A stretch of DNA of 32,538 bases from a virus. Location: positions 1-32,538 of IMG/VR virus record IMGVR_UViG_3300039098_000093, one strand, 5' to 3'. The first letter of the stretch is position 1, and each line of letters starts with the position of its first letter. The notes below the pieces were generated by a model, which did not search any database, was not told the origin of the DNA, and saw only the letters and a program-made list of their open reading frames with translations. Made by a program: the position numbers and the translations under genes. This document shows, piece by piece, positions 1 through 30,500 of this stretch.

Positions 1-119
1 CATCGAAGTAGTTTAGTGTTTATCCGTAGTACAGAACCGTCACTCAAAGAAACTGACCTCCAAGTATCACTTAAACAAGACACAAAATCACTCCGAACAT
101 ACTGACCGTCGAGTTTCAT
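1..119 (-). CDS. Partial hypothetical protein running off the left edge
   Basis: An ATG at 119-117 on the minus strand opens a frame with no stop through 39 codons to the window edge. It begins MKLDGQYVRSDFVSCLSDTW. A strong ribosome-binding site, AAGGAG at 130-125, lies 5 nt before the ATG, and a sigma70-like promoter lies about 120 bases further upstream at 269-241. I do not recognise the product from the visible part. It is transcribed divergently from everything else in the window, so it marks the start of a leftward operon. The repeat-rich 2-kb region beside it may be a divergent control region. Support comes from the ribosome-binding site, the promoter and the open frame, not from homology. 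Confidence 0.6.
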   Translation of the reverse strand, partial: MKLDGQYVRSDFVSCLSDTWRSVSLSDGSVLRINTKLLR

Positions 120-240
120 ATTAGCTCCTTCCGTGCATGTAAGTTACACTGTAGAAAATAGTGTAGAAAAATGTACTTTGTATAGTAGTCATAGCACTTT
201 TAAGTAGTTGAATTTAATGTAAATATTATGTGACATACAT

Positions 241-269
241 ATACTACAGTACAAGCAAGATATTGTCAA
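241..269 (-). promoter_or_regulatory. Leftward sigma70-like promoter
   Basis: On the minus strand a perfect -35 box TTGACA (269-264) is followed after exactly 17 bases by TAGTAT (246-241), a 4/6 match to the -10 consensus. Transcription would start near 234 and give a leader of about 115 bases before the ATG at 119. Confidence 0.55.
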
Positions 270-376
270 CAAAAACTTTAAAAATTAAGGATGGAATCGT
301 AAAGGAAGGTAGTTTAACCAACCAACCAGCCAAAAAATTAAAATCGGACCGAATCCGAAAGTAAAAAGCAAGATCC

Positions 377-427
377 AACCGACCATTCATTTCAACCGAC
401 CATTCATTTCAACCGACCATTCACTCC
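377..427. repeat. Three tandem 17-bp direct repeats
   Basis: The unit AACCGACCATTCATTTC occurs at 377 and 394, and a third copy begins at 411 with its last bases changed. Related CCAACCAACC words occur nearby, around 316 and 548. No function can be assigned. Confidence 0.8.
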
Positions 428-954
428 GACCAACCACGCCGACGAATCGCCCTGAAAGTCACAAAGTAAAGAGACTTACACTCTATCCAAGAGATTATAG
501 AAATAGTTTTTCAAGTAGTGACTAAGCAGTAGTATTTAACGTGTACTCCAACCAACCAATTAGTTAGAGTGTGCGTGTACATGTAGATAGTAAGGACTAT
601 GAAGTGTGTTTGGATGAATAGATAGTAAGACACTCGGTGAGTCTCTCAACAGTAGCTAAATGCTCTTGTTTCAGAGTGACGTAGTTTGATAGTAGTAGAG
701 ACAAGAGATTGACTGTAGAAGTGTTCAGCAACGTGAATCAGCTTGTTTAAGAGTCTGTCTTGTTCAGTTACACGGAGATCATACTATTCGGACGGGTGTT
801 TGTATAAGAATATGGAAGGAACGGCTGTAGAACGTGTAGATTCTTGAGTGATGGAGTAGAAGACGGGTCATAATATGTTGAAGGACGGAGTAACTAGCAT
901 GAAAGGACTGTGAAATGGTAATAGATGTAGCAAGAACGGAGTGAAATCAGTACA

Positions 955-1081
955 AGTTGGCATTGTAGTTGGCATTGTAGTTGGTTAGAAATTGACTGTA
1001 GTTGGTGTAATGAGCATTGAAATTGACTGTAGTTGGTAGGAAATTGACTGTAGTTGGCAGGAAATTGACTGTAGTTGGCAA
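955..1081. repeat. Tandem 12-bp and 21-bp direct repeats
   Basis: Two copies of GTTGGCATTGTA (period 12) run into four copies of GAAATTGACTGTAGTTGG starting at 988, 1019, 1040 and 1061. The last three are spaced 21 bp apart. Each copy contains TTGACTGTAG, which also occurs once near 708. A 21-bp period keeps reading frame and encodes a repeating LPTTVNF on the minus strand, but that frame has no ribosome-binding site. I treat this as a DNA repeat, possibly a protein-binding array. Confidence 0.8.
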
Positions 1082-1086
1082 AATTG

Positions 1087-1262
1087 GTAGCCTGGCTTTT
1101 TCTACCCCTTCGGGTGCTCGGCTGCTCGGTAGGTTGTTAGTCTGGTGACTTCGCGTACCGACCAGTCCTGGTCTCCTAGTCTGGTGACGTCGCCTTCGCG
1201 CCAGCCTCGGGTCCTCGGTGCGCGCCTTCCTCGCCACCTCCGAACCACGCCCAAAATCCGTC
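1087..1262. other. GC-rich island inside AT-rich control region
   Basis: About 175 bases are strikingly richer in G and C than both flanks. The segment contains two copies of TAGTCTGGTGAC (1138 and 1177), a CC-TTCG-GG tetraloop-like word near 1107, and the palindrome GACCAGTCCTGGTC near 1160. Such composition can mark a structured RNA or a horizontally acquired fragment. I could not fold it into a tRNA or a known RNA family by eye. Confidence 0.4.
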
Positions 1263-1292
1263 TCCGTACATTTTTTTATTAGATAGACATAA

Positions 1293-1320
1293 CTAAATTA
1301 GTTTCATCAAACTAATTTAG
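1293..1320. repeat. Perfect 12-bp inverted repeat with 4-nt loop
   Basis: CTAAATTAGTTT (1293-1304) and AAACTAATTTAG (1309-1320) are perfect reverse complements separated by CATC. A diverged third arm, AAACTAACTTAG, follows at 1328-1339 and leads directly into the 38-bp repeat array. No T-run follows it on either strand in the terminator position, so a protein-binding or cruciform site beside the array is more likely than a terminator. Confidence 0.6.
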
Positions 1321-1338
1321 TTTCATAAAACTAACTTA

Positions 1339-1550
1339 GAGCAGTCTAACATACATTATTACTTATATGTAGTACATTTAGAGCAGACAAACATTATTAC
1401 TTATATGCATTACATTTAGAGCAGACAAACATTATTACTTATGTACATTACATTTAGAGCAGACAAACATTATTACTTATATGCATTACATTTAGAGCAG
1501 ACAAACATTATTACTTATATGCATTACATTTAGAGCAGACAAACATTATA
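1339..1550. repeat. Iteron-like array: six copies of a 38-bp direct repeat
   Basis: The word GAGCAG starts at 1339, 1381, 1419, 1457, 1495 and 1533. Spacing is 42 for the first unit and exactly 38 for the rest. Each unit reads GAGCAGACAAACATTATTAC followed by TTATATGCATTACATTTA, with at most a few changes. The first copy is diverged and the last is truncated. Units abut with no variable spacers, so this is not a CRISPR array. Tandem direct repeats of this kind beside a promoter resemble iterons bound by a replication initiator or regulator. A related copy at 1982-2022 supports a binding-site role. Confidence 0.8.
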
Positions 1551-1557
1551 CACTGAT

Positions 1558-1570
1558 TAGTGCAGCACTA
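1558..1570. repeat. Small palindrome TAGTGC-A-GCACTA
   Basis: A 6-bp inverted repeat with a one-base centre lies just after the 38-bp array. The same half-sites, TAGTGC and GCACTA, recur in the larger inverted repeat at 2475-2506, so both may be recognised by one DNA-binding protein. That role is inferred. Confidence 0.4.
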
Positions 1571-1981
1571 TATTATATGACACTCATTAGTGTAATTGAA
1601 CATTTTATAGTGAACATCCCCATTTTGTCGTGTCACATTGTTGACATGCTGCTTAGAAGCTCTGTAAGCGTGTTTTAGAGCTATTTTTGACCCCACGTGC
1701 AAATGCATTGCATATACGTAAGTGACGCAATACAAGAGATTTGATGTTTCTGAACGTTCTATGCATGTTTTTTGAGCACTCTTTGTAAAACAATGCAAAG
1801 CTATGATAAATTAAAACAAAGAGCAAATAGCGCTATCTAGCAAGCTAGAATGATGCAATCTATTGCTAGTATGTAAGTGAGTAATCATTTGTAGTGAGTA
1901 AGTGAGTAGAGACTTACAGTGTGCAAGCAAATAAGCTTTCATTATATGTTTGTTTTTACGTGCTTTTTGTACTATGCAAGT

Positions 1982-2022
1982 GGGCAGACAAACAAAAACT
2001 TGACTTATATGCACGCATTATG
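1982..2022 (+). repeat. Diverged seventh copy of the 38-bp repeat at the promoter
   Basis: GGGCAGACAAACA (1982-1994) and ACTTATATGC (2003-2012), followed by ATTA at 2017-2020, match the left, middle and right parts of the 38-bp unit in the same order and orientation. The copy covers the -35 box of the rightward promoter at 2000-2005. A protein that binds the array would therefore also be placed to control this promoter. Confidence 0.6.
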
Positions 2023-2028
2023 TACAAT
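2000..2028 (+). promoter_or_regulatory. Rightward sigma70-like early promoter
   Basis: TTGACT (2000-2005, 5/6) and TACAAT (2023-2028, 5/6) are separated by exactly 17 bases. Transcription would start near 2035, about 40 bases before the first small gene. It overlaps a copy of the 38-bp repeat. Confidence 0.7.
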
Positions 2029-2073
2029 TAAGATAAGTAGAGCATGTAACTAAACTTAAAAATGGGAATCAAA

Positions 2074-2214
2074 ATGAAAGCGAAAAAATTAGCTCAACTC
2101 GTAAGATATTATCAAATGATAAAGAATAGCGAAAAACTCGCTGAGAACGTTAAGTTGCAGATTGCTTTACTGCAAGTTGACGTCGTTGAAAACATTACTG
2201 TTGAATATATGTAA
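2074..2214 (+). CDS. Small hypothetical protein (46 aa, or 50 aa from the ATG at 2062)
   Basis: The frame runs from ATG at 2062 or 2074 to TAA at 2212-2214. From the second ATG it reads MKAKKLAQLVRYYQMIKNSE and ends in VENITVEYM. It is rich in Lys, Leu and Gln and is probably a single long helix or short coiled coil. I prefer 2074 because GGGA lies 7 bases upstream. The same layout (AAATGGGAA, then ATGAAA) occurs at the 2535 gene, so the first ATG may only be part of the ribosome-binding site. It is the first gene downstream of the 2000-2028 promoter and lies 11 bases before the next gene. Function is unknown. Confidence 0.55.
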   Translation: MKAKKLAQLVRYYQMIKNSEKLAENVKLQIALLQVDVVENITVEYM

Positions 2215-2225
2215 TGGGGTGAAAC

Positions 2226-2393
2226 ATGCAAGAATTAAAGATTGCAATGTACAAAACTCAAGTAGATGATGCACAGTCTAAAATCGAAGTTATCGACGTG
2301 TTGTTAGACATTGACACAAGTAGTCTGTCAATGTCTGACGTTGACATCATCTATCAGTATGCAAAAGCAAGATTATCGATCATACATGTTTAA
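2226..2393 (+). CDS. Small hypothetical acidic protein (55 aa)
   Basis: The frame runs from ATG at 2226 to TAA at 2391-2393. GGGGTGA upstream serves as ribosome-binding site. The protein is acidic, with many Asp and Ser residues (for example DIDTSSLSMSDVDII), and is predicted by eye to form two helices. It follows the 46-aa gene by 11 bases and is closed by a hairpin at 2404-2440. The two genes are therefore likely a short early transcription unit. I do not recognise the family. Confidence 0.6.
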   Translation: MQELKIAMYKTQVDDAQSKIEVIDVLLDIDTSSLSMSDVDIIYQYAKARLSIIHV

Positions 2394-2403
2394 TCTTTTT
2401 ACT

Positions 2404-2440
2404 CGCTATCATCACAGAAGATTGCTCTGATAGCGTTTAT
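2404..2440 (+). terminator. Hairpin terminator after the first small-gene pair
   Basis: CGCTATCA (2404-2411) pairs perfectly with TGATAGCG (2428-2435). An alternative pairing adds CAGA with TCTG. The stem is followed by TTTATAT. The U-tract is short, so termination may be partial. Confidence 0.5.
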
Positions 2441-2474
2441 ATAGCTCTTTGACTACAATTAAGCATTAGTGCAA

Positions 2475-2506
2475 TAGTGCGTGTAAAATCTGCTAAACAC
2501 GCACTA
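2475..2506 (+). promoter_or_regulatory. 10-bp inverted repeat upstream of the 205-codon gene
   Basis: TAGTGCGTGT (2475-2484) pairs perfectly with ACACGCACTA (2497-2506) around a 12-base loop, and an extra TAGTGC half-site lies at 2467-2472. It ends 28 bases before the gene start and has no T-run after it, so it looks like an operator or an mRNA leader hairpin. The TAGTGC/GCACTA half-sites match the palindrome at 1558-1570. Confidence 0.5.
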
Positions 2507-2534
2507 ATCAATTATTGCAGAAATGGGAAATGTC

Positions 2535-3140
2535 ATGAAAAAATCAAAAGTATCAAGCAAAGTTGCTGAACAAAGCACTTTGTCAGATGCAATCTTCACA
2601 GAGAATCAAGACGACTTGTTTCTTTTCTCTGTTGTTTCACGTGAAACATCTGCAAAGTCTGTTGATGTTCTTGACGAACTCAACAACTTGTTTGCAATCA
2701 GCGAAGTAGTTAGTGAATCATCAAGCAAGTCTGCTATACAGATCGACAAAACGTCTATATTTGCAAGCGTCAAATCTCGTGATGACGAGTTGACAAATAC
2801 GTTTCTGCTCGACACTGTCATCGCAATGACAATTAAGTTAAGTCTCAAGTACAAGCAAGACTTGACGTGTCAAGCTGTAAGTAACTATCTCATCAATCAA
2901 GATTGCTTTGACAAATGGGATAGCAAAACTGTAAATGTTGCAACAAAACTTACAGCACGAGTCAAAGATCATCTGAGAGCAAACAATGAACGAAAACGTT
3001 CTGTACTCTACAATAGCGTGACAACTCGTAAGCGCAAAGTATACGTCAACAATGATGCAAGCAAGTGTTACACTGTCGATGACATCATCATCACTGATAG
3101 AGTCAAGACGCTTGTGTGCGAGTCATCATTACTGTACTAA
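2535..3140 (+). CDS. Hypothetical protein of about 201 aa carrying a parS site in its DNA
   Basis: The frame ends at TAA 3138-3140. It can start at ATG 2523 or, as I prefer, at ATG 2535, which has GGGA 7 bases upstream. The N-terminal half is low-complexity, rich in Ser, Asp, Val and Leu, with two similar blocks (a DDLFLFSVVSRETS-like block and a NNLFAISEVVSESSSKS-like block) that suggest internal duplication. The C-terminal half is basic and more globular: a helical stretch from about residue 95 and a cluster NNERKRSVLYNSVTTRKRK that could contact nucleic acid. No ParB, helix-turn-helix or enzyme motif is obvious. A perfect parS palindrome lies within codons for VVSRETS at 2633-2648. Function is unknown. 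Confidence 0.6.
   Translation: MKKSKVSSKVAEQSTLSDAIFTENQDDLFLFSVVSRETSAKSVDVLDELNNLFAISEVVSESSSKSAIQIDKTSIFASVKSRDDELTNTFLLDTVIAMTIKLSLKYKQDLTCQAVSNYLINQDCFDKWDSKTVNVATKLTARVKDHLRANNERKRSVLYNSVTTRKRKVYVNNDASKCYTVDDIIITDRVKTLVCESSLLY
2633..2648. other. Perfect parS-like partition site
   Basis: TGTTTCACGTGAAACA is a 16-bp perfect palindrome identical to the broadly conserved bacterial chromosomal parS consensus bound by ParB. It lies inside a coding sequence, as several chromosomal parS sites do. No ParA or ParB gene is in the window. Either host ParB or a phage ParB encoded elsewhere could bind it. Confidence 0.75.
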
Positions 3141-3146
3141 TAAGAC

Positions 3147-3195
3147 ATCATCCCATACGTATTACGCTTATGTAGTACGTATGGGGTAGAGGGGA
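3147..3195 (+). promoter_or_regulatory. Duplicated hairpin leader, copy 1
   Basis: CCCATACGTA (3152-3161) pairs with TACGTATGGG (3176-3185). A U-G pair and three more base pairs extend the stem to a hexaloop. The ribosome-binding site GAGGGGA directly follows the stem and precedes ATG 3201. A copy identical at 47 of 49 positions lies at 3519-3567 before the paralogous gene. Conservation of hairpin, ribosome-binding site and spacing suggests a translational control element or an operator. Confidence 0.65.
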
Positions 3196-3200
3196 ATATT

Positions 3201-3512
3201 ATGAAGCATTACAATGCTCTATGTCTATTATGTAGTCTGTTATATGAGTTTAGACATAAGTATATTGACACTTTGCGTACAGATGATGAAGTCTATAGCA
3301 TGCAACAAATGTATGATAACACTGCTCACATTGTTGCATTAGTCTCTTTGCTACGAGTAATCACTCACAAGCGAGACGCTAAGATAGACTATACAGATGC
3401 TTTTGTGCGTACATATGAAATGCTCTTTACTGTAGCGTCTCAAGTTGAAAGCGAGCATGCGCAACAACTCTTGTTCAAGATCTGTTCACGTGTTGAGCAT
3501 GTTTTAGATTAA
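3201..3512 (+). CDS. Hypothetical helical protein, paralogue 1 (103 aa)
   Basis: The frame runs from ATG 3201 to TAA 3510-3512. GAGGGGA stands 6 bases before the ATG, directly after a hairpin. The protein is mostly helical. A central segment LVSLLRVITHKRDAKIDY aligns with LTSLQIITRKHDSAVDY of the next gene, and both genes share the 49-nt leader, so the unit gene plus leader was duplicated. There is no membrane segment or known catalytic motif. The two proteins may form homo- or hetero-oligomers, by analogy with other duplicated small phage proteins, but that is speculation. No function is recognised. Confidence 0.65.
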   Translation: MKHYNALCLLCSLLYEFRHKYIDTLRTDDEVYSMQQMYDNTAHIVALVSLLRVITHKRDAKIDYTDAFVRTYEMLFTVASQVESEHAQQLLFKICSRVEHVLD

Positions 3513-3518
3513 CATGTT

Positions 3519-3567
3519 ATCATCCCATACGTATTACACTTATGTAGTACGTATGGGATAGAGGGGA
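3519..3567 (+). promoter_or_regulatory. Duplicated hairpin leader, copy 2
   Basis: CCCATACGTA (3524-3533) pairs with TACGTATGGG (3548-3557), followed by GAGGGGA and ATG 3573. It differs from copy 1 at two positions only: one in the loop and one just after the stem. Confidence 0.65.
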
Positions 3568-3572
3568 GATTG

Positions 3573-3860
3573 ATGAAATACTTTCAATGCTTAATAGCAG
3601 TACATGCTAGCTTGCAGTACTATAACAGCGAGCATTTGCAGACGCTTAACGTGCAAGTATACGAGCATGCACAATACATTATGTACATGCTCACATCATT
3701 GCAGATCATAACACGTAAGCATGACAGTGCTGTTGACTATGAGTGCTTATTAAATTGTGTGTATGATGAGATTATTTGTATTGAGATGCATGTTGATTGC
3801 TTAATCACTAAACATATAATGCAAGACATCTTGTTACAAATTAGTGCTGTTGTTGATTAA
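3573..3860 (+). CDS. Hypothetical helical protein, paralogue 2 (95 aa)
   Basis: The start is ATG 3573, not the TTG at 3570, because the distance from GAGGGG to the ATG is then the same 6 bases as in the 3201 gene. The stop is TAA 3858-3860. The protein reads MKYFQCLIAVHASLQYYNSE at its start and is diverged from paralogue 1 but alignable through most of its length, best around LTSLQIITRKHDSAVDY. It has several Cys, His and Met residues but no clear metal-binding spacing. It is the last gene of the left cluster and is followed by a hairpin and the repeat-filled junction. Function is unknown. Confidence 0.65.
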   Translation: MKYFQCLIAVHASLQYYNSEHLQTLNVQVYEHAQYIMYMLTSLQIITRKHDSAVDYECLLNCVYDEIICIEMHVDCLITKHIMQDILLQISAVVD

Positions 3861-3912
3861 GTTTTTGTTGAGTGCATGTTCGCAAAGTTTTGAGCATGTA
3901 CTCGACTTAAAA
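3859..3912 (+). pseudogene. Possible remnant of a third paralogue C-terminus
   Basis: In the frame starting at 3844 the DNA encodes KFLLSACSQSFEHVLDLK, which resembles the C-terminus LLFKICSRVEHVLD of the 3201 gene. No ribosome-binding site or start belongs to it, and it lies just beyond the stop of paralogue 2. It could be a decayed duplicate or the old tail of paralogue 2 after a frameshift. The match is short and could be chance. Confidence 0.3.
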
Positions 3913-3929
3913 AATTCAGTCTTTTTTTT
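3867..3929 (+). terminator. Possible terminator ending the left gene cluster
   Basis: GTTGAGTGCATG (3867-3878) pairs with CATGTACTCGAC (3895-3906) over 12 positions with two G-U pairs. A run of eight T follows at 3922-3929, 15 bases after the stem. The gap weakens the case for a classical intrinsic terminator. Confidence 0.4.
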
Positions 3930-3942
3930 GTGTGAGCACGTG

Positions 3943-4120
3943 GGTCCACACCACGATTTTTTGGTCAGATTTTGGAGAACTTCATTTAGTCCTAATATTT
4001 GGTCCACACCACGATTTTTTGGCTAGATTTTGGCAAACTTCATTTAGTCCATCTTACTGGTTCGGTCAGATTTTGGCAAACTTCATTTAGTCCATCTTAA
4101 TGGTTTGGCAAACTTAATTA
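3943..4120. repeat. Degenerate direct repeats in the early/late junction
   Basis: GGTCCACACCACGATTTTTT starts at 3943 and again at 4001 (period 58). Each copy continues into an AGATTTTGG, then AACTTCATTTAGTCC segment. A third copy lacking its left part starts near 4059, and a fourth fragment, TTTGGCAAACTT, follows at 4104. The stretch has no gene. It may be repeat decay or a binding region in front of the late operon. Confidence 0.7.
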
Positions 4121-4140
4121 ACCCTCCTCCTGCCCCCTTT

Positions 4141-4190
4141 CACCTTTTAATTCAAAAACCACACCTTTTAATTCAAAAACCACACCTTTT
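4141..4190. repeat. 21-bp tandem repeat beside the late promoter
   Basis: CACCTTTTAATTCAAAAACC begins at 4141 and 4162, and a third copy starts at 4183 and is cut short after CACCTTTT. The array ends 3 bases before the -35 box of the late promoter, a position suited to an activator-binding site. That role is inferred. Confidence 0.7.
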
Positions 4191-4192
4191 TC

Positions 4193-4221
4193 TTGACTCC
4201 TTATTAAAAAAACTCTAAAAT
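4193..4221 (+). promoter_or_regulatory. Late operon promoter, sigma70-like
   Basis: TTGACT (4193-4198, 5/6) and TAAAAT (4216-4221, 5/6) have exactly 17 bases between them. Transcription would start near 4228 and give a short leader carrying AAGGAG before the TTG start at 4264. All structural genes follow on the same strand. Confidence 0.7.
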
Positions 4222-4263
4222 CAAAGGAATCCATAGCATTTCTCTTCAAAAAGGAGCCAAACC

Positions 4264-4785
4264 TTGACATCACGTAACACAGACTTCAATAGGAAATTAG
4301 GAAACCTTGGAATCAGTAAAGGCAAGCTGGACGAAGTACCAATTGCTATGTGGGACGCAGTCCCACTATGCAATGAGGAAACCTGCCCCATCGCCGAATC
4401 ATGTCCATACAACAAAACAGGACGATGCACAGTCAGAGTTAAATATCTGGCAAACGTATTCGATGCTGTATCAAACCTTCCAGAAAACTTAGACCCTATA
4501 ACTATCTTAAAGATAGGAATGCACATCATACCGATGTACTCACAACTTTGCCGCTTCAAAATGGAGGAATACAACTCCCCCACAATGGTGGCAGATGCTA
4601 AAGGCAATCTTAAAGTCAATCCGATATTCCGTGAAATTCGAGAGACCATCAAAGTAGCCAACAGCTTACTCCAGGATTTAGATTCTACAGTGAATGGCCT
4701 ACCAACCGATGGAGATCAAGAATACTACGACTCGTTGTTCACTGAACCTTCACCAACCAAAAAACCACGAATTAAGAAAAAATGA
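4264..4785 (+). CDS. Putative terminase small subunit (173 aa)
   Basis: The start is the rare codon TTG at 4264, chosen because a strong AAGGAG (4251-4256) lies 7 bases upstream and no ATG or GTG is better placed. Position directly before the large terminase, with an ATGA overlap (4782-4785), is the main argument for a DNA-recognition subunit of the packaging motor. The C-terminal helix NPIFREIRETIKVANSLLQD, near residues 120-140, resembles the oligomerisation end of P27-like small terminases. The N-terminal third carries C36-x4-C41-x5-C47-x7-C55, a possible zinc or iron-sulphur site that is unusual for this role. The C-terminus is Lys-rich. Alternative: an unrelated packaging accessory protein. 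Confidence 0.55.
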   Translation: MTSRNTDFNRKLGNLGISKGKLDEVPIAMWDAVPLCNEETCPIAESCPYNKTGRCTVRVKYLANVFDAVSNLPENLDPITILKIGMHIIPMYSQLCRFKMEEYNSPTMVADAKGNLKVNPIFREIRETIKVANSLLQDLDSTVNGLPTDGDQEYYDSLFTEPSPTKKPRIKKK

Positions 4786-6632
4786 GCAGACTACTAAAAA
4801 GAAAACTACCGGAACCGGAAGAAATAAACTACCGCTCAGGTGGAGAAGGATTTTGTAAATGGTGTGAAGAGAACGTCTGCATACCGGTATACCACAACAA
4901 CAGCTACGTACCACAGTGGACACCCATGTGTTGCCTTCCAACTTCACCTAACCCGAATACTGGGCGTAGCTACCATTCCTTCTGGGAGAATCAGAAAACC
5001 GTTCTAGTTAAAGCCCTTGCTATGAGAGATGGACGGTTTCTATATAGGCTTATAATATTCTGCTGGCAGCGAGGTGAAGGTAAAAGCTTCATTGCTGTGT
5101 TGATACAATTATGGAAGTTCTTTTGTTTTCCTCGCCAAATGATCATGCTAGGGGCCAACAGCAAGGAGCAGACAAAGTTTGTCCATTATGATATTATGCG
5201 GGACTTCATCCTAAACTCTCCTAAGCTTCTTAAAATTATAGGTAGAAAGAACATCCAAGAAAAAGAGATTAAACTCCGGGATAAACGTGGTAATATAGGC
5301 TCATTTATCCGTAGCATTTCAACCAGTACCGGTATTGTAAGTAATGTTACTGGGTACACCTTTTCTGAAATGTTTGATATGACCAATCCAAAGTTCTTTG
5401 TCCAGCTTGACGGTTCTATTAGGAATATACCCAATGCTTTAGGAGTTATTGATTCCACCGTATCCACTAAAACCCACATCCTCTACAAGCTGTACCAAAC
5501 CTTCACTAAAAACAAAGATCCATTCTTGTTCTTTTCTCATCGGTTTTCCCAGAATGCCAGTTCCGAAGATTACTGGAATCCGCAGATGACCCAACAACAA
5601 TTAAACTCCTATGAGAATAAATTCCCAAGGGCAGAATTTGAACGGTATTTTAAGAATACCTGGGAGGCCGGTTCTAACCGATTCTTCACCAAGGAAATGA
5701 TCCAAGCCACTCATTACTTCGGTATTAATGGTACCCTCGGCCAACACCAACAAATCATTGATCTGTTGAAAAAGGTTAACAGCCGAGATTCCAAAATCCA
5801 TGAAAGAGTTCATGCAGACAAAACCTATATTGATACCGAGGGTATTGCCTTAAAACAATCCTTAATAAAAGTATCCTCAGTCTACACCCTGCACAGTTCA
5901 CATCTTCATCCACAGAAATGTTCACTAGCTGAATTAGAGGCTCTTTCTAACCTATACAAAACCGACTTCGCAATACTTGTAGGAATAGATCGAGCTGACC
6001 CTATGAAAACTGACCTGACTGCAGGTGCTCGTACCATTGTTACCGTCACCGCCAAGGGTCTACCAAATAGTAGAAACAATCCAGACATGTACCTTGAAGA
6101 AGGACTTGTTAAGGAATACATCTACATTCTTCTTCACCTTGCCCATATAGAATCCAATGAACTGAAGCATGTTAAAGCCACAATCAAGTCTTGTATTGAA
6201 GAGTATGATGGAGTGGAGAGTATATGCTCTGAGCGATGGGGCATGTGGGATGTTAATGATTGGTGTGCTGAACAGGATATTGGATTTGAAGCTATCAGCC
6301 CAAGCTATGACCGACAGAAAGAAGCCTTCAGTGAATTATGGACTTTGTACAAGACTGGAAAGTTTAAAACACCATCAGTTCATGTTCCCGGATCTAAAGA
6401 GGATGACATACTTGAGGAGGAAGCCTTGAGATTTGATTCCAATCCATTTAAGAAATGGTATGGATCTGCTGAGAAGAACGAGAAACCAGGAGTCCAAGAT
6501 GACGTGATCTACAGCCTTGCCTGGGGAATATATGGAGGGCGTATGTTAGGACCAGAGGAATTCAGAGAAAGAAGTACCCCCTTCTCATGGGGAGAGGCAT
6601 ATCAACCAAAAGATTTAGTGGGAGCTTACTAG
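4782..6632 (+). CDS. terL: Terminase large subunit, packaging ATPase/nuclease
   Basis: This 616-aa protein is the motor that translocates and cuts phage DNA into the prohead. Residues 85-110 carry the region RFLYRLIIFCWQRGEGKSFI, with a deviant Walker A WQRGEGKS near residue 100. The segment MIMLGANSKEQ follows, as in the ATPase domain of large terminases. In the C-terminal half, ILVGIDRADP with Asp403 fits the first metal-binding aspartate of the RNase H-like nuclease. Later acidic residues such as those in QDDVIYSLAWG near the C-terminus fit the last nuclease motif. A Cys-rich N-terminus (CKWC at 25-28, C33, C50, C51) is notable. It has no good ribosome-binding site of its own and overlaps the small subunit by 4 bases, so translation is probably coupled. 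Confidence 0.88.
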   Translation: MSRLLKRKLPEPEEINYRSGGEGFCKWCEENVCIPVYHNNSYVPQWTPMCCLPTSPNPNTGRSYHSFWENQKTVLVKALAMRDGRFLYRLIIFCWQRGEGKSFIAVLIQLWKFFCFPRQMIMLGANSKEQTKFVHYDIMRDFILNSPKLLKIIGRKNIQEKEIKLRDKRGNIGSFIRSISTSTGIVSNVTGYTFSEMFDMTNPKFFVQLDGSIRNIPNALGVIDSTVSTKTHILYKLYQTFTKNKDPFLFFSHRFSQNASSEDYWNPQMTQQQLNSYENKFPRAEFERYFKNTWEAGSNRFFTKEMIQATHYFGINGTLGQHQQIIDLLKKVNSRDSKIHERVHADKTYIDTEGIALKQSLIKVSSVYTLHSSHLHPQKCSLAELEALSNLYKTDFAILVGIDRADPMKTDLTAGARTIVTVTAKGLPNSRNNPDMYLEEGLVKEYIYILLHLAHIESNELKHVKATIKSCIEEYDGVESICSERWGMWDVNDWCAEQDIGFEAISPSYDRQKEAFSELWTLYKTGKFKTPSVHVPGSKEDDILEEEALRFDSNPFKKWYGSAEKNEKPGVQDDVIYSLAWGIYGGRMLGPEEFRERSTPFSWGEAYQPKDLVGAY

Positions 6633-6642
6633 GAGAACCATT

Positions 6643-8262
6643 ATGGATCAAGCAGAAAAAGAAGCATTAATAGATGGTCTAACAGATGACCAGATCATGG
6701 AATTAGGGCCACTGACTACTTCACCATGGTCTTATCAGGAGTTGAATAAAGAAACCCATAGGGATGAGGATGGTTTTGCCATAGACCCTATGGGTAATCT
6801 GCAGAACTTCTCTCAGCTACAAGCTGAATGCTGGAAGAAGTTTGTATTGAGCCCCCAAATAAACAGTCATGTCCGGGATTATCAAGGAAGTCTTACTGGT
6901 TCGGGCTTTTGTATGGGTTCTGACGTCCAAGAGATCCAAGATGCCATGACTGAGATTTCTGAGGACCCCAGAAACGAATTTCACAAGAGATTACCCCAAT
7001 ATGTTGCCAGAGCTGAGATTGAGGGCGAATTATTCCTTCCATTGACTGTTCACGTTGATGGATTTGTCGAAATCGACTTTATGGAACCCCAGAGCTTGAA
7101 AGGGGGCGGAGATTCGAATTCTGGCATCATTTTTCACCCAAAGAAGCAAACTATGCCCCTAATGTATCGTTTTGAGCAAAAATCGAGTAAAGGAGCGTCA
7201 GAAATAATACATGTCCCATCTATTTACCTTGCAATGTATCCACAAATGTATAAGTTAATATCCGGAAATCCCGGTATCACACAGAAATCATTGCGTTTAT
7301 CTCTAGGAATTGGACGAAAATACTCCAAATTGGGCGGTTTTAAGAGCTTTATAACCTCCTGGGATAGGGGCTTTCTCACCAAAAGAAATGTCTCCCATAT
7401 CAGAACTACGATCATGTGGGTCAATCACTACGAAAACCTCAAGAAATGGGAGATAGATCATAAGAAATCAAGTGGTTCTTACTTATGGGTTGTCCAAATG
7501 GAAGATGCCAAAGCCTATAGGACTTGGTTAAAGCTCACAGATGAGCAGAAGAAGAGCACAGGTCTCTTTGCCAAGAAGGTGCCAGGAGGCACTTTAGTAC
7601 TCCCTCCCGGTGTTTCCCTCAAGTGTGAGAATCCAAACCTTGCTTCTATCTCAGATCAAGACACGGATATCATGCAAATGGTGGTATCGGGTCTTAATGC
7701 ACCTAATGATATGGTTACCGGTGCCACCAAGGGTTCTACATTTGGTGGTATAAAGGCTACTAGGCAACCACAATCGGATAGGACGAATGATCAAATAGCC
7801 TATTTTGAAAGATTTCTAAGATTTGACTTCTGGCGATGGATTTTCTTCCTTCGTGGGTCAATGATTAAGTTCCCAGAAACTTACTCCGTAAAAGAAGCTG
7901 TAGAATTCAAGAACAAGGAACCAGTTTTCAAGACGGTAAAGAAGAAGCACTTTCAATTGGTGGACTTTGAATTCCCGGTATCCGAGATTTCCGATTCTGA
8001 AGCTACAGCAAGGGCATTGTTAGGAGTAAAACATGGCTCCGTTGCTGAGTCCCTAGGTATCCCAAAAGCGGACATTGCAAAGAAGATGGGTTTCGGCGGA
8101 TACAAGAAGAAGAGGCTTAGATTTGCTACTGAAGAAAAGACTTTACCCAAGACCCCACTAGCAATTTTAGTGGAAGCGGCCCAATCTTCTTCTCCAGAGG
8201 GTGAACCTGGTGTACCTAATAATAACACACCTGCAAAAAAAGATGATTCTAAAGAAAATTAA
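6643..8262 (+). CDS. Portal protein
   Basis: This 539-aa protein should form the dodecameric ring at one head vertex through which DNA enters and leaves. Evidence is size, position directly after the large terminase, and portal-like sequence: an N-terminal wing and stem region with VRDYQGSLTGSGFCMGSDVQ, and a segment near residues 349-375 (GLNAPNDMVTGATKGSTFGG) typical of the crown-side helix and loop of portals, followed by amphipathic segments with many aromatic residues. The C-terminal tail from about residue 515 is low-complexity, rich in Pro, Ser, Lys and Asn, and probably disordered. AGGAGAA (6631-6637) overlaps the terminase stop and gives a strong ribosome-binding site. Confidence 0.8.
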   Translation: MDQAEKEALIDGLTDDQIMELGPLTTSPWSYQELNKETHRDEDGFAIDPMGNLQNFSQLQAECWKKFVLSPQINSHVRDYQGSLTGSGFCMGSDVQEIQDAMTEISEDPRNEFHKRLPQYVARAEIEGELFLPLTVHVDGFVEIDFMEPQSLKGGGDSNSGIIFHPKKQTMPLMYRFEQKSSKGASEIIHVPSIYLAMYPQMYKLISGNPGITQKSLRLSLGIGRKYSKLGGFKSFITSWDRGFLTKRNVSHIRTTIMWVNHYENLKKWEIDHKKSSGSYLWVVQMEDAKAYRTWLKLTDEQKKSTGLFAKKVPGGTLVLPPGVSLKCENPNLASISDQDTDIMQMVVSGLNAPNDMVTGATKGSTFGGIKATRQPQSDRTNDQIAYFERFLRFDFWRWIFFLRGSMIKFPETYSVKEAVEFKNKEPVFKTVKKKHFQLVDFEFPVSEISDSEATARALLGVKHGSVAESLGIPKADIAKKMGFGGYKKKRLRFATEEKTLPKTPLAILVEAAQSSSPEGEPGVPNNNTPAKKDDSKEN

Positions 8263-8316
8263 TTGACATCCCAAATCCCAGGTGATAGTTTATAAGCTAA
8301 TGGAGGTATTTAAGTT

Positions 8317-9681
8317 ATGGCAGATAAACTGAACCATCCAAGAATCATATCCAAATTGATCAACGAGCCCTGGCTGATACAAGACGACTATCTTGTCAAA
8401 ATGATTGAGATAGCCAAGGGTTACGGAGACGTTGGAGCAGTTGAGACTAAACGGTCTCAACCGCTAGAGCAAACTGCCAAGGCGTTTGTTCGAGATAGTG
8501 TAGCACACATTCCGGTTATGGGGCCTATCTTTCCTAGAGCAAATATCTTTACTGAGATCAGCGGTGGTGTTTCAATCAGTTCCCTCGCAAAGGATTTCCA
8601 GGTAGCTCTTGATGATGAAGAAGTCTCCTCTATTGTAATTGATATTGATTCCCCAGGTGGGGCAGTAACCGGGATTAATGAAATGGCTGATATTATCCGG
8701 GCAGCCAGCACCCAAAAAGATGTGACCGCGTATGTTAGCGGTACTGCTGCTTCTGGCGGCTACTGGTTAGCAAGTGCGGCTAAAGAAGTTGTGATTGATG
8801 CTACTGCGAGAGTTGGTAGTATTGGAGTTGTTGTAGCCTACCCAGGCAAAAGTGAAGATGACTCGGTGGAGATTTGGAATAGTGCAAGCCCAAACAAAAG
8901 AGTAGACGTTTCCACTGAAGAGGGCAAAGCAGTTGTAGTGAAAGAGTTGGATGCTCTTGCTGAAGTGTTTATAAATTCAGTTGCCGCGTTCAGAGGGGTC
9001 TTGCCTGAGAAGGTAATATCCAGCTTTGGTAAGGGTTCAGTTTTAGTTGGACAAAACGCCGTTGATGTTGGGATGGCCGATAGACTGGGGTCATTCGAAG
9101 GTCTTCTGGCTGAAAAGAGTGTTAATACTAATGATGATGGAGGATACACTATGATGGAGGGGAAAATCGAGATAACTGCTGATTCCCTCAAGACTTCAGA
9201 TCCTGATGTGTTTGAGAAGATTAAGGCCATGGGCAGAGCTGAAGGGGAAGCCAGTGCCAAGGAAGTTGTCGATTCCAAAGACTCAGAAATTGTTGGGTTG
9301 AAGGAAAAGATTTCTTCTCAAGACGGTAGGCTAATAGCCCTTGAGAAGATCGAAGTTCTCAGGGCAGAAAGGGAAATGAAATCGGTTGCAGGAGCCACTG
9401 TATCGGCGGCACTGGCAGCCAGCTCTATTCCCGTCAGGCTGCATGAGAGGATACGTGCTACTCTGGATCACGGCAAGTTCGTGGTTGAGGGGAGTTTGGA
9501 CGCCAAGGGCTTTTCGGAACACGTTTTAGCTGAGGTCAAGGATTGGGAAGACAATCTTACAGAAGATGCAGTTCAGGGATTTGGTTCTACCAATCTGGCA
9601 CCGGCTGAAGGAGAATCCACCCCGGATGTTGAGGCTATAGTTAAGCGTATGGCAGCTTCTGCTGGTCAAACTATACAATAA
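8317..9681 (+). CDS. S49-family prohead protease with C-terminal scaffold domain
   Basis: This 454-aa protein combines head-maturation protease and scaffold. Residues 60-260 form an SppA/S49 ClpP-like fold: SSIVIDIDSPGGAVTG at 104-119 and SGTAASGGYWLASAA at 141-155 with nucleophile Ser146, followed by GSIGVVVAY. From about residue 279 the sequence changes to a charged, helical, coiled-coil-like region (EVVDSKDSEIVGLKEKISSQ) typical of scaffolds. This is the layout of lambda C/Nu3. A start inside the gene at 9151 should make the scaffold alone. GGAGG lies 10 bases before ATG 8317. It precedes the decoration and capsid genes, as in lambda-like heads. Confidence 0.85.
   Translation: MADKLNHPRIISKLINEPWLIQDDYLVKMIEIAKGYGDVGAVETKRSQPLEQTAKAFVRDSVAHIPVMGPIFPRANIFTEISGGVSISSLAKDFQVALDDEEVSSIVIDIDSPGGAVTGINEMADIIRAASTQKDVTAYVSGTAASGGYWLASAAKEVVIDATARVGSIGVVVAYPGKSEDDSVEIWNSASPNKRVDVSTEEGKAVVVKELDALAEVFINSVAAFRGVLPEKVISSFGKGSVLVGQNAVDVGMADRLGSFEGLLAEKSVNTNDDGGYTMMEGKIEITADSLKTSDPDVFEKIKAMGRAEGEASAKEVVDSKDSEIVGLKEKISSQDGRLIALEKIEVLRAEREMKSVAGATVSAALAASSIPVRLHERIRATLDHGKFVVEGSLDAKGFSEHVLAEVKDWEDNLTEDAVQGFGSTNLAPAEGESTPDVEAIVKRMAASAGQTIQ
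9151..9681 (+). CDS. Nested in-frame scaffold protein (Nu3-like internal start)
   Basis: ATG 9151 is codon 279 of the protease gene, in the same frame, and is preceded by GGAGG (9139-9143) with a 7-base spacer, an ideal ribosome-binding site inside a coding region. Translation from here gives 176 aa (MMEGKIEITADSLKTSDPDV at the start), consisting of the charged helical region without the protease. Lambda makes its scaffold Nu3 from an internal start in gene C in the same way. The function assigned here rests on that parallel plus the visible internal ribosome-binding site. Confidence 0.65.
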   Translation: MMEGKIEITADSLKTSDPDVFEKIKAMGRAEGEASAKEVVDSKDSEIVGLKEKISSQDGRLIALEKIEVLRAEREMKSVAGATVSAALAASSIPVRLHERIRATLDHGKFVVEGSLDAKGFSEHVLAEVKDWEDNLTEDAVQGFGSTNLAPAEGESTPDVEAIVKRMAASAGQTIQ

Positions 9682-9696
9682 TTGAGGAGGTTTATT

Positions 9697-10377
9697 ATGC
9701 CTGTAGGTTTAGGAGGCAGCATGCCTCAACTTAATCGGTCTGGAGAAACTCCGGGACCAAAAGCGCTATTTCATTCAGTACGAGATATTGCGCTGATTAA
9801 GGACAAGACAATCCAGGCCGGTTATGGTGCCCTGAAGAGCGGTACTATAATGGCCACGAATGCAGTAACAGGGGACCTCGTTCCCTATACACCAGTAGCT
9901 TTTGCTGCCGGTCAAATGAGCAGAGCTTATTTGGTTACTGATTTTCTTACTGGTGATGACTTTTGTTATGTGACCATAGCCGATTCTTATAAATTGGCTG
10001 TTGGTGATTCGATTGTCCTTGCCAATAACGTTCCCCTTTATGATGATACCGGTAGTTTTATTCTTGCTATTGATAGAACTACAGAACCGCACAGAGCACT
10101 GGTAACTTTCACTACTGCTATTGCCGTTGCTACTTTCACCACGGCCCTTGCTGCTTGTGTTTATTCGAAATCTGGTGCTGCCGGTAATTTTTCCGATGCA
10201 ACTTTCATTCTTGACCAAGATGTTTTTACTGGTGAGGACGAAAATGCTATTGGTGCAAATACATCAGTTCTGATATCCAATGCGATTCTGTATACTGGTG
10301 CTCTTATTAACTTTGATGCCGCCGCTGCTACCTCTCTTGGTACGATAAGCGATGGTTTTCATACAATCCTGAAATAA
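9697..10377 (+). CDS. Putative head decoration protein
   Basis: The start is ATG 9697, with GAGGAGG about 7 bases upstream. An in-frame TTG at 9682 lies upstream of that site and is not used. The 226-aa product is Ala-, Gly- and Thr-rich and beta-rich, with a region IQAGYGALKSGTIMATNAVTGDLVPYT that resembles the beta-tulip fold of lambda gpD-like decoration proteins (conversion of a varying property into a gating surface around residues 35-70). Location between the protease/scaffold and the major capsid protein is the usual one for a decoration or head-stabilising protein. It is longer than lambda gpD (about 110 aa), so an extra domain is likely in the second half. Known: decoration proteins bind capsid three-fold positions. 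Inferred: this role here. Confidence 0.55.
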   Translation: MPVGLGGSMPQLNRSGETPGPKALFHSVRDIALIKDKTIQAGYGALKSGTIMATNAVTGDLVPYTPVAFAAGQMSRAYLVTDFLTGDDFCYVTIADSYKLAVGDSIVLANNVPLYDDTGSFILAIDRTTEPHRALVTFTTAIAVATFTTALAACVYSKSGAAGNFSDATFILDQDVFTGEDENAIGANTSVLISNAILYTGALINFDAAAATSLGTISDGFHTILK

Positions 10378-25752: not shown

Positions 25753-26447
25753 AAGAATTACAGTTAGAATCACAATTCGTTCAGTTGTTTGGATCGGAAC
25801 TTTTAACAGAATCAGATTTAGGGGTTGTCACGCAACTAAAGGATGAACTTGTCCATACGTTAAGAACAACCCAGATTCATCGTACAAGAACGGAAATGGA
25901 GGTCTCTGTTTTAAACGATACCAAGTTTCCAACTCCTGCTTCTAAGTATTGGCAGTCGTTAAGGGAGCAAGGGGTCATGTTCGAGGAACTGATCCTTTTG
26001 TCTTTTGAGTATCGAAAAAGGAAAGTGGAAGTAAAAATTCTCAAAAGGAAGTTTACCAAAGAAGAGGATGATCTTGAAAGAGAGCTTCTCCAGATTGAAA
26101 TTGAAAAGGAACAGTATATACTGTCTGCCCAGGAAAGGGTTGCTAAAGCTCGCATTCGCGAAATCAAAGATTGGTCTGAAATCAAGGCAAGAGAAATGTC
26201 CCTTATGAACGGTGACGATTTAGAGGATTCAGATCACCATCAGCTTATCTCATATACAAAAAGGTGGATTCAGCAAAGTATTTTGATGGGTAATAATGGT
26301 AGTCCATCGGAAATACAAAATCTGCTTGGTCAGTTACGTAGTGGTATCAAGACTTGCATGAGGTTGGGTCTTTTGGATATTGTTTTGCAGGGCTTCAATG
26401 AAAATATTCAGAATGATATTAAACGCTCTTATGGAGTAATAAAATAA
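25749..26447 (+). CDS. Hypothetical coiled-coil protein (232 aa)
   Basis: The ATGA overlap with the previous gene gives the start at 25749. The protein is nearly all helical. Residues about 85-150 form a charged coiled coil (RKRKVEVKILKRKFTKEEDD onwards). The C-terminal third (GLLDIVLQGFNENIQNDIKR) looks globular. It ends in TAATG with the giant kelch protein, so it is translationally coupled to it. A chaperone or assembly factor for the neighbouring fibre is possible by position, but the sequence gives no proof. Alternatively it is a tail-tip rod component. Confidence 0.5.
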   Translation: MKELQLESQFVQLFGSELLTESDLGVVTQLKDELVHTLRTTQIHRTRTEMEVSVLNDTKFPTPASKYWQSLREQGVMFEELILLSFEYRKRKVEVKILKRKFTKEEDDLERELLQIEIEKEQYILSAQERVAKARIREIKDWSEIKAREMSLMNGDDLEDSDHHQLISYTKRWIQQSILMGNNGSPSEIQNLLGQLRSGIKTCMRLGLLDIVLQGFNENIQNDIKRSYGVIK

Positions 26448-29400
26448 TGTCTGGAACCTGGTCAGCCGGTGGTAGTTTACTAACAGCACGGCGTTACATT
26501 GGAGGCTGTGGTACTCATATAGCAGGTTTATCGTTTGGAGGGTATATCCTTGCTAATACAGACGTAACGGAGGAGTATAACGGTTCTACTTGGTCGAGTG
26601 GCGGTAGTTTGGCTACAGCTACAAGGGGTGCAGGTGGTGCTGGAACTCAAACGGCTGGTTTAGAGTTCGGTGGGTATACTACCATATATGCTACTCACAC
26701 TGGAGAGTACAACGGCACAACATGGTCAGGAGGTGGTAGTTTAGCTACAGGTAGGCGTTATCCTGGAGGAGCTGGAAGTCAGACTGCTGGATTGTCGTTT
26801 GGTGGGCAAATAACTTTTGCTGTATCGAACACGGAGGAGTATAACGGTACAATATGGTCAGCAGGTGGCTCATTGTCTACCGCTCGTCGTTTACTTGGTG
26901 GGGCCGGCACTCAGTCGGCTGGGTTATCTTTTGGTGGTGATAATAATGGTACTAATGAAGACAACACGGAGGAGTATAACGGTACAACATGGTCAACAGG
27001 TGGTAACCTTTCTTCACCAAAATATGGCCTGGGAGGATGCGGTACCCAATCTGCTGGCTTAGCGTTTGGTGGATATACTACCACATATATAGCAGTAACT
27101 GAAGAGTACAATGGAACTGCTTGGGGTAGTGGTGGTAATTTAGCTACTGCAAGAAGCCAACTTGGAGGTTGTGGTAGTCAGTCAGCCGGTCTTTCTTTTG
27201 GTGGAAATACAGGTGCTATTTCTGCTGTTACAGAAGTATATACAATAGGATATATAGCTCACGGTACTTGGTCAATCGGTGGTAATTTAAGTACAGCGAG
27301 GCGTCTCCTTGCGGGTTGTGGAACTCAAACGGCCGGATTAAGTATTGGTGGTTATTCCTCGGCTGGTAATTCCAATATTACAGAGGAGTACAATGGAACT
27401 AGTTGGGGTTCTGGTGGAAATTTGTCCACAGCAAGATATGGTTTGTGTGGTTGTGGTATTCAAACAGCCGGTTTAAGTTTTGGTGGTTCTACGGGAAGTG
27501 TTACCAACGTTACAGAAGAATACAATGGAACTAGTTGGAGTTCCGGTGGAGGTTTGGCTGCGGTAAAAGATTATTTAGCGGGTTGTGGAGCTCAAACAGC
27601 CGGTCTTTCCTTTGGTGGTTATACGGGAAGTGTTAATTTATCTTCTACTGAGGAGTATAACGGCACTGCTTGGAGCTCTGGTGGAAATTTAGCTACAGCA
27701 AGAAGATCACTTGGTGGTGCTGGAAGTCAGACTGCTGGATTGTCATTTGGTGGTGTTGTTTCAACTTATTCGGATATTACTGAAGAGTACAACGGAACAA
27801 GCTGGTCTTCAGGCGGAAGTTTGGTTGTGTCTATACAACGGAACAGTGGTTGTGGAACTCAGACAGCAGGTTTGTCCTTTGGTGGTTATACAGTAAGTGC
27901 CGTTAGTGTTACAGAAGAGTACGACGGAACTAGTTGGAGTAGCGGTGGAGATTTAATTACAGCAAGAGAGCAATTATCGGGAGCAGGTAATCAATCAGCT
28001 GGTTTATCTTTTGGTGGTTCTACGGGAACTCTTTCTACGGCAACTGAGGAATACGGTTTTCCCATACCAAGTTCTGGAACTTGGTCTGCCGGTGGTAATT
28101 TGTCTACCGCGAGATCTGATTTGGCAGGTTGTGGAACTCAAACAGCAGGTTTATCTTTTGGTGGTTTTATTTCAACTTACTCGGCTGTAACCGAGGAGTA
28201 TAATGGCACTGCTTGGGGTTCTGGTGGAAATTTAACTACAGCAAGATATGGTTTAGGTGGATGTGGTATTCAAACAGCCGGTTTGTCTTTTGGGGGTACG
28301 GCTGGGGGTGACGTTAGTACAACAGAGGAGTACGATGGTACATCATGGAGTAGCGGAGGTAATTTAGCTACAGCACGGCGTTATATTTGTGGTGCCGGAA
28401 CTCAAACAGCCGGTCTTTCCTTTGGTGGACTAACCACAGTTGTTTCAAAAGTAACGGAGGAGTACAATGGTACCGCCTGGTCTGCTGGTGGTGATTTATC
28501 TGTAGCCAAAAGATTATTATCAGGAGCGGGAACGCAAACTGCTGGTTTGTGTATGGGTGGATACACCAGTGCATCTCTTAATATTACTGAGGAGTATGAT
28601 GGAACTGCCTGGTCTTTAGGTGGTAATTTAGCTACACCTTTACGAGCTGCCGCTGGAGCAGGTTCTCAGACCTCTGCCCTTTCTTTCGGTGGTGTTATAT
28701 CTATTGCGGTTGCTGTCACTGAAGAATACAACGGTACTTGTTGGCGTAAAGGCGGAAATCTATCCACTGCAAGATATGTTCTTGGTGGCGCTGGTTCCCA
28801 GACAGCTGGATTGTCCTTCGGTGGTAATACTGGTTCTGTTTCTGCGGTAACTGAAGAATATACAAAGATTCCGGCATTTATTGGTGTTTGGTCCACGGGT
28901 GGAAATTTAGCTACAGCACGAAAGGGTATAGCGGGTTGTGGAACTCAAACAGCCGGTCTGTCTTTTGGCGGTGCTGTGGGTACGACAAACTATGTTGTAA
29001 CTGAAGAGTACAACGGATCTGTTTGGTCTTCTGGGGGTAACTTATCTAATTCAGTCCGGTATTCTAGGGGTTTGGGAATCCAAACAGCAGGTCTTTCATT
29101 TGGTGGTAGGGATTCCGGTGGCACCAATGTTGCGATTACTGAGGAGTACAATGGTTCTTCTTGGTCCTCTGGTGGAAATCTGGCTACAGCAAGACGTAAT
29201 TTAGGTAGTGCTGGTTTTCAGACAGCAGGATTGTGTTTTGGTGGTGTCACAACTGTGGTTGTTGCTATAACTGAGGAGTACAATGGTACTGCTTGGTCAT
29301 CTGGTGGGAGTCTGTCTACTGCAAGGAGTGCCCTTGGTGGTGCCGGTACCCAGAATGCTGCCCTTGCCTTTGGTGGATCAACTGGTTCTGCTTCTGGTAT

Positions 29401-30500
29401 AACTGAGGAGTACAACGGTACTGCTTGGAGCTCTGGTGGAAATTTAGCTATAGCAAGATATAGCCTGGGTGATGCCGGTTCGCAGACAGCTGGATTGTCG
29501 TTTGGTGGATATATTTCCGCTATTTCGGCGGTAACTGAAGAGTACAATGGATCAGTTTGGAGCTTGGGTGGTAATCTTATTACTGCTAGATACACCCTTG
29601 CGGGTTGTGGCATTCAGACTGCTGCATTATCCTTTGGTGGATTAGACTCTGCTGAGTTAGCAACAACCGAAGAATATAATTCTGGGATAATACAGTACAA
29701 TGGTGTTTGGCGCTCCGGTGGAAATCTATCTACCGCGAGACACAGTTTGGCAGGTTGTGGAACTAAAACAGCAGGTTTATCTTTTGGTGGATATACTACT
29801 ACCAATTCAAATATTACAGAGGAGTATAACGGAACTAGTTGGGGTTCTGGTGGAAATTTAACTACAGCAAGATATGGTTTAGGTGGATGCGGTATTCAAA
29901 CGGCTGGTTTGTCTTTTGGTGGACATGCTTTTGGGGTAGGTGACCAAAACGTCACCGAAGAATATGACGGTACTACTTGGTCTGCTGGAGGTAATTTATC
30001 TGTAGCTAAAAGAGAATTAGCTGGTTGTGGAACACAAACTGCTGGTTTGTGTTTTGGTGGTACTACTGGTGCTGTCCAAGCTGTAACAGAAGAGTACAAC
30101 GGTACTGCTTGGAGCGCTGGTGGAAATTTACTCACAGCAAGATATGGACTAGCAGGATGCGGTATTCAAACGGCTGGTTTATCTTTTGGTGGGTGGGTAT
30201 CAGCTAATGTGGCTACTACCGAAGAGTATAACGGAACTAGTTGGTCTTCAAGTAGTGATTTGTCCACACCACGTTCTTATATGGGTGGTTGTGGAATTCA
30301 GACAGCAGGTTTGTCATTTGGTGGTAGTAGTGGTACTTATTCGTTTATAACTGAGGAATACAATGGTACTGCTTGGGGCTCCGGTGGAAATTTACTCACA
30401 GCAAGGCAGGGTTTGGGTGGTGCCGGTTCACGGACCTCAGCTTTAAGTTTTGGTGGTACTACGGGCTCTATTTTAAATGTAACTGAAGAGTATGGCTTTG
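26447..30500 (+). repeat. 30 tandem kelch-coding repeats in five blocks of six
   Basis: Units are about 132 bp each, in one frame. Block boundaries fall near 27260, 28070, 28880 and 29699, giving blocks of about 810 bp. Some units in different blocks are almost identical at DNA level, for example the second units of blocks 3 (around 28210) and 5 (around 29840), which suggests whole-block duplication or gene conversion. Confidence 0.8.

Follow-up and report, generated by a model that had tools for sequence, protein, structure and literature searches.

The window analysed here, a stretch of 32,538 nucleotides (bases 1-32538 of a linear virus record of 35,824 bp), carries inside a gene an exact chromosomal-type parS, TGTTTCACGTGAAACA, and we consider it rather likely that this 16-mer is an orphan parS that recruits the ParB protein of the host, in a phage without a recognisable ParB. 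The parS sequence is far more common in other viruses than expected by chance, and hence the site in the window may dock a host segregation protein. This reading is plausible and has a precedent, while it is unproven for the phage in question.

The 16-mer is identical to the chromosomal parS of Hyphomonas neptunium (PMC7022226), in agreement with the original prediction, which had described a perfect palindrome equal to the chromosomal parS consensus. It is the sole copy in the window in a scan that tolerated up to 3 mismatches, and the window contains no other perfect 16-bp palindrome. The site is read in frame within the ORF at 2523-3140 (GTT TCA CGT GAA ACA, encoding V-S-R-E-T). Markov models of order 0 to 3 yield 0.6-1.1e-5 chance copies per 32.5-kb window, close to the earlier estimate of about 1 in 130,000, and a model trained on the oddly composed small-gene module still gives only about 1-4e-6 copies per 1.8 kb. 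A second, weak parS-like site, TGTTTCACGTGGTACT, with 3 mismatches, is located at record position 32774; a hit as good as this one was found for 16% of control palindromes, and the site could be a coincidence.

The virus record is a fragment: the relatives identified through the terminase large subunit (TerL), in which the order of the structural genes is kept, include genomes of 86.6 and 87.6 kb that are close to full length, so that approximately 50 kb of the phage genome are probably missing. From position 4264 on, the window encodes a tailed-phage structural module that includes probable terS, TerL, portal (assigned by position and conservation), S49 protease, capsid E and tape measure. 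The parS site had been placed in a small-gene cluster next to a candidate origin; the cluster is indeed there, with five small ORFs (see the table), whereas the supposed origin amounts to 38-bp repeats, with no replication gene found nearby. Near-identical hairpins, CCCATACGTA...TACGTATGGG, precede the paralogous ORFs that start at 3201 and 3573 (hairpin positions 3150-3185 and 3524-3559, respectively). At the other end of the window, the ORF at 26447-32161 (1904 aa) contains numerous repeats of the form TEEYNGTxWSSGGNLxTAR...GGAGTQTAGLSFGG and probably encodes a repeat tail or adhesin protein. An Rfam search produced no match, and a tRNA search found none.

Table. Coordinates of the features discussed, in the numbering of the window unless a contig of a relative is named
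Feature	Position	Strand	Remark
38-bp direct repeats, previously the candidate origin	1311..1587	.	
Sigma-70-like promoter TTGACT-17-TACAAT, upstream of the module	2000..2028	+	number of such matches in the region not above chance
Small-gene module, five ORFs, coding DNA almost free of GG/CC	2074..3860	+	
Module ORF, 46 aa	2074..2214	+	
Module ORF, 55 aa	2226..2393	+	
parS-bearing ORF, 205 aa from 2523	2523..3140	+	
Exact chromosomal-type parS, TGTTTCACGTGAAACA	2633..2648	.	equals a published parS (PMC7022226)
Module ORF, 103 aa	3201..3512	+	paralogue of 3573..3860 (E ~1e-6, nine-protein comparison)
Module ORF, 95 aa	3573..3860	+	paralogue of 3201..3512
Three ~50-nt direct repeats immediately upstream of terS	3943..4093	.	
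Probable terS, gene preceding terL	4264..4785	+	by position, conserved in relatives
Terminase large subunit	4782..6632	+	phrog_2, E 1.5e-11
GG/CC-free modules in relatives	L128:214-1622, L186:500-1875, L188:6822-7877, L225:1-1203, L154:1501-2500		

Searches for ParB (PF02195) and ParA (PF13614) gave no match in the entire 35.8-kb record, itself a fragment, so that the earlier statement that no ParA or ParB gene is visible extends beyond the window, and no self-encoded ParABS cassette was found in the record. Conservation of the 16-mer in related phages, which had been proposed as a check, was not observed: parS is absent, at up to 2 mismatches, from 11 relative records and from all 83 TerL loci. 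All these sequences are distant at the parS locus, and therefore the non-conservation is real but constitutes weak evidence. Several contigs of this group show other peculiarities near TerL. In two relatives, the terL gene is interrupted at the Walker A motif, between residues 101 and 102, by some 1 kb of sequence (L126:4455-5494 and L127:1457-2472), which resembles an intron or intein-like insertion; TerL of the window is intact. Furthermore, of those contigs of relatives that exceed 15 kb, about two thirds stop no more than 5 kb upstream of TerL, like the record examined here; this points to either an end of the genome or a break in the assembly close to the GG/CC-free module.

The better-placed start of the parS-bearing ORF is the ATG at 2535, behind GGGAA, which yields a protein of 201 aa; the site is located about 100 bp into the ORF, in its poorly conserved N-terminal part. 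No homologues of this ORF were detected in viral_contigs, genome_contigs, INPHARED, PLSDB, Pfam, PHROGs or PDB. A profile built from the terS-adjacent proteins of five relatives (L167, L168, L175, L239 and L243) gave a marginal score against the protein from the window (11.1 bits, equalled by 1 of 1998 shuffles), and the possible homology, itself marginal, would be confined to the C-terminal half with its DCF-K motif. The N-terminal VVSRETS stretch has no counterpart in the terS-adjacent proteins of the relatives, and the marginal candidate homologues keep neither this peptide nor the palindrome. Structure prediction for the protein of the parS-bearing ORF was unusable (pLDDT 40); the model of the terS-adjacent protein of L128 (pLDDT 68) consists of helices followed by a strand pair and produced no fold match.

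The case for recruitment of host ParB comes largely from other viruses. The exact parS 16-mer is present in at least 120 viral contigs of IMG/VR, compared with 10 and 5 contigs in the same collection for two palindromes of equal base composition, an enrichment that is a rough estimate given that it involves just these two controls. ParB_N was identified in 4 of 39 and 0 of 47 tested parS records, that is, 82 of the 86 are without it. Among the loci listed, 60 of 120 carry just one site, which lies in an ORF of 60 or more aa, some of these ORFs being spurious; a scan of the 20 largest revealed several clear phage genes. The phage genes that hold parS encode a Gp16 ATPase, a protein-primed DNA polymerase (DNA_pol_B_2), a head-tail connector, a T7-type capsid assembly protein, the lysozyme of Bacillus phage Goe1 and proteins with LPD domains. 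A phrog_2 terminase is encoded in 15 of the 36 parS records of at least 30 kb, against 4 of 8 control-palindrome records (both palindromes pooled). Some of the scanned viral contigs may be host DNA; however, host contamination as the sole origin of the viral parS sites is rejected by the many sites that lie within phage genes or on TerL-bearing contigs.

Two other arrangements were encountered in the same scan. A TerL-bearing contig of 116.7 kb (L088, record G052) contains 24 parS-like sites scattered across 20 kb, most of them TGTTTCACGTGGAACA, and ParB_N was not found in it. In a clade of six contigs (L028, L030, L094, L098, L102 and L120), an intergenic parS is kept 19-93 bp upstream of the terL gene, with flanks that are largely unalignable. 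All contigs of this clade were found through parS, so that they demonstrate long retention of the site rather than its frequency.

The Goe1 contig pointed to cultured phi29-like Bacillus phages. Each of eight such phages has 2-4 sites that match parS exactly or with one mismatch, whereas control palindromes average fewer than 0.01 occurrences in these genomes at up to 2 mismatches. The codons of the parS in the endolysin gene are nearly all retained even in phi29 (69% amino-acid identity), compared with only 52-54% codon sharing at other identical endolysin residues in the more distant phi29-like members. Spo0J reportedly has a part in the entrapment of the phi29 genome within spores.

Under the recruitment model, host ParB would nucleate at 2633-2648 after entry of the phage DNA and would then slide into the kilobases on either side and so occupy the small-gene module as well as the terminase end. 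The likeliest benefit would be that the phage genome is placed or retained together with the origin region of the host, as is said of phi29 and Spo0J; local effects on transcription are also possible. From a single parS, ParB spreads up to about 2 kb in Caulobacter, and Spo0J spreads about 10 kb in Bacillus (PMC5815017), and over such a range of about 2-10 kb both the module and the terminase end would be covered.

It is possible, if on the whole unlikely, that the exact parS arose by coincidence in a fast-evolving phage gene and might bind ParB with no selected role. The single exact copy in the window, its absence from all 83 TerL relatives and the lack of conservation of the N-terminal region of the ORF are all compatible with this explanation, and some chance matches have to exist given that about 5-10 are expected collection-wide. 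Compared with the at least 60 single-site intragenic loci, however, such matches should explain only a minority of the class, roughly one eighth by this rough reckoning.

The two remaining explanations appear improbable. The palindrome could serve as an operator for a different dimeric regulator, such as a phage protein encoded in the module, and owe its likeness to parS only to the CACGTG symmetry. This would be in line with the frequency of palindromes among operators and with the modest-confidence L128 model, which lacks a fold match and may be compatible with a winged helix; nevertheless, the match to parS extends over 16 of 16 positions, related palindromes are absent from the other promoters of the module, and the site lies in the middle of a gene. 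Slightly less probable still is a site that serves a ParABS system or ParB-like protein of the phage itself, with its genes in the ~50 kb absent from the record: the record is a fragment and the relatives reach ~87 kb, yet the genomes of 86.6 and 87.6 kb contain neither ParB_N nor AAA_31 ParA nor parS.

Taken together, recruitment of host ParB is supported by the exact match to parS (~1e-5 by chance), the enrichment among viral contigs, most of them without ParB_N, the location of sites in phage genes and the conservation in the phi29-like phages. Against it are the lack of the site in all 83 TerL relatives, the position in a non-conserved part of the gene and the single exact site, compared with 2-4 in phi29-like phages; the sole second site is weak and perhaps a chance occurrence. 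Thus, the original proposal that the phage recruits host ParB gains support at the level of the class but not specifically for this phage, which has one site, no relative sharing it and no close relative of the gene itself. Because the site is not conserved in relatives, the claim is limited to the suggestion that it may work as the phi29 sites do; membership in that class is unproven.

The composition of the GG/CC-free module is a stronger surprise than parS and merits separate study. Its coding DNA contains 2 GG and 0 CC, compared with ~103 expected, and the GG/CC left in the module are found only in ribosome-binding sites and intergenic hairpins, plus one GGG at 2917; in the remaining window, GG/CC occur at 1.0-1.4 times the expectation, with lower values across much of the left 2 kb. 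Gly and Pro have nearly disappeared from the module proteins, and nine of these proteins, 972 residues in total, include not a single one. The same taboo is seen in 20 of the 83 TerL relatives, always upstream of the terminase genes and mostly within 1-4 kb of terL, although there is no clear sequence conservation between their modules. Summed over this phage and 19 relatives, the main gene of the module has 28 GG/CC instead of the expected 595, whereas the terL genes from 17 of those contigs have 2608 compared with 2276 expected. The taboo spans coding DNA, and in several relatives non-coding DNA as well, in both gene orientations and in many metagenomes; in L128, even the ribosome-binding sites and hairpins are free of GG. 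In a set of 14,088 400-bp windows drawn from the initial loci, it was detected only in this lineage and in one marginal window.

The junctions between codons are affected as well (G|G 1 vs 110 expected; C|C 0 vs 59 expected), and where the next codon begins with G, the codons for Lys, Glu, Gln and Leu have A as their last base 136 times and G never, compared with 239 and 229 times elsewhere. These statistics demonstrate a constraint at the nucleic-acid level and reject a protein- or codon-level cause. Both strands are equally affected, so evasion of a GG/CC reader acting on double-stranded DNA is the first guess, with a constraint on mRNA structure as the second. The purge is probably a new sequence-level constraint in a phage, which would most likely hide early-expressed DNA from such a reader; the candidates may include a surveillance system with a GG/CC PAM-type signal or the phage's own nuclease or terminase. 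A near-absolute taboo at one small locus, kept while the proteins diverged beyond recognition, implies a strong selective agent. Goe1 and phi29 show no GG/CC depletion, first-step transfer of T5 was rejected as a precedent (888 GG/CC in T5 1-10219 vs 818 expected), and a limited literature search found no direct paper on GG-dinucleotide avoidance in phages.

A literature search for host ParB acting on a phage parS likewise found no direct paper, and several known systems offer partial parallels. Phage-plasmids such as P1 encode the matching ParB and have partition sites with sequences of their own. Together with the extrachromosomal mycobacterial prophages (PMC7157519), these phages with their own ParABS resemble the present one in having a partition site on the phage genome and differ in that the cognate ParB is theirs, whereas none was found in the record of the window. 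With chromosomal ParABS, the site shares the identical recognition sequence (PMC7022226); here, parA and parB were not found in the record, and the site is not near a bacterial origin. SGI1, which exploits the ParAB of the IncC plasmid through a stolen parS, is similarly a parasitic element that has parS without parAB and is served by the ParAB of another replicon; its parS is, however, a 22-bp plasmid-type site, present in two copies and demonstrated by experiment (PMC10954446).

The phi29-like phages (phi29, B103 and Goe1), which are unrelated to the phage of the window, have canonical or one-mismatch parS within genes, encoding V-S-R-E/G-T, and no ParB is annotated in the genomes read. Their sites are conserved, 2-4 per genome, and their host is known, whereas the phage of the window has one exact, non-conserved site. 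The scan suggests that orphan parS sites are common in phages (at least 10 times as frequent as the control palindromes), which would make the hijacking of host ParB a testable general theme, and if host ParB loads at the site described here, this phage would, like phi29, exploit the bacterial centromere that is conserved most widely.
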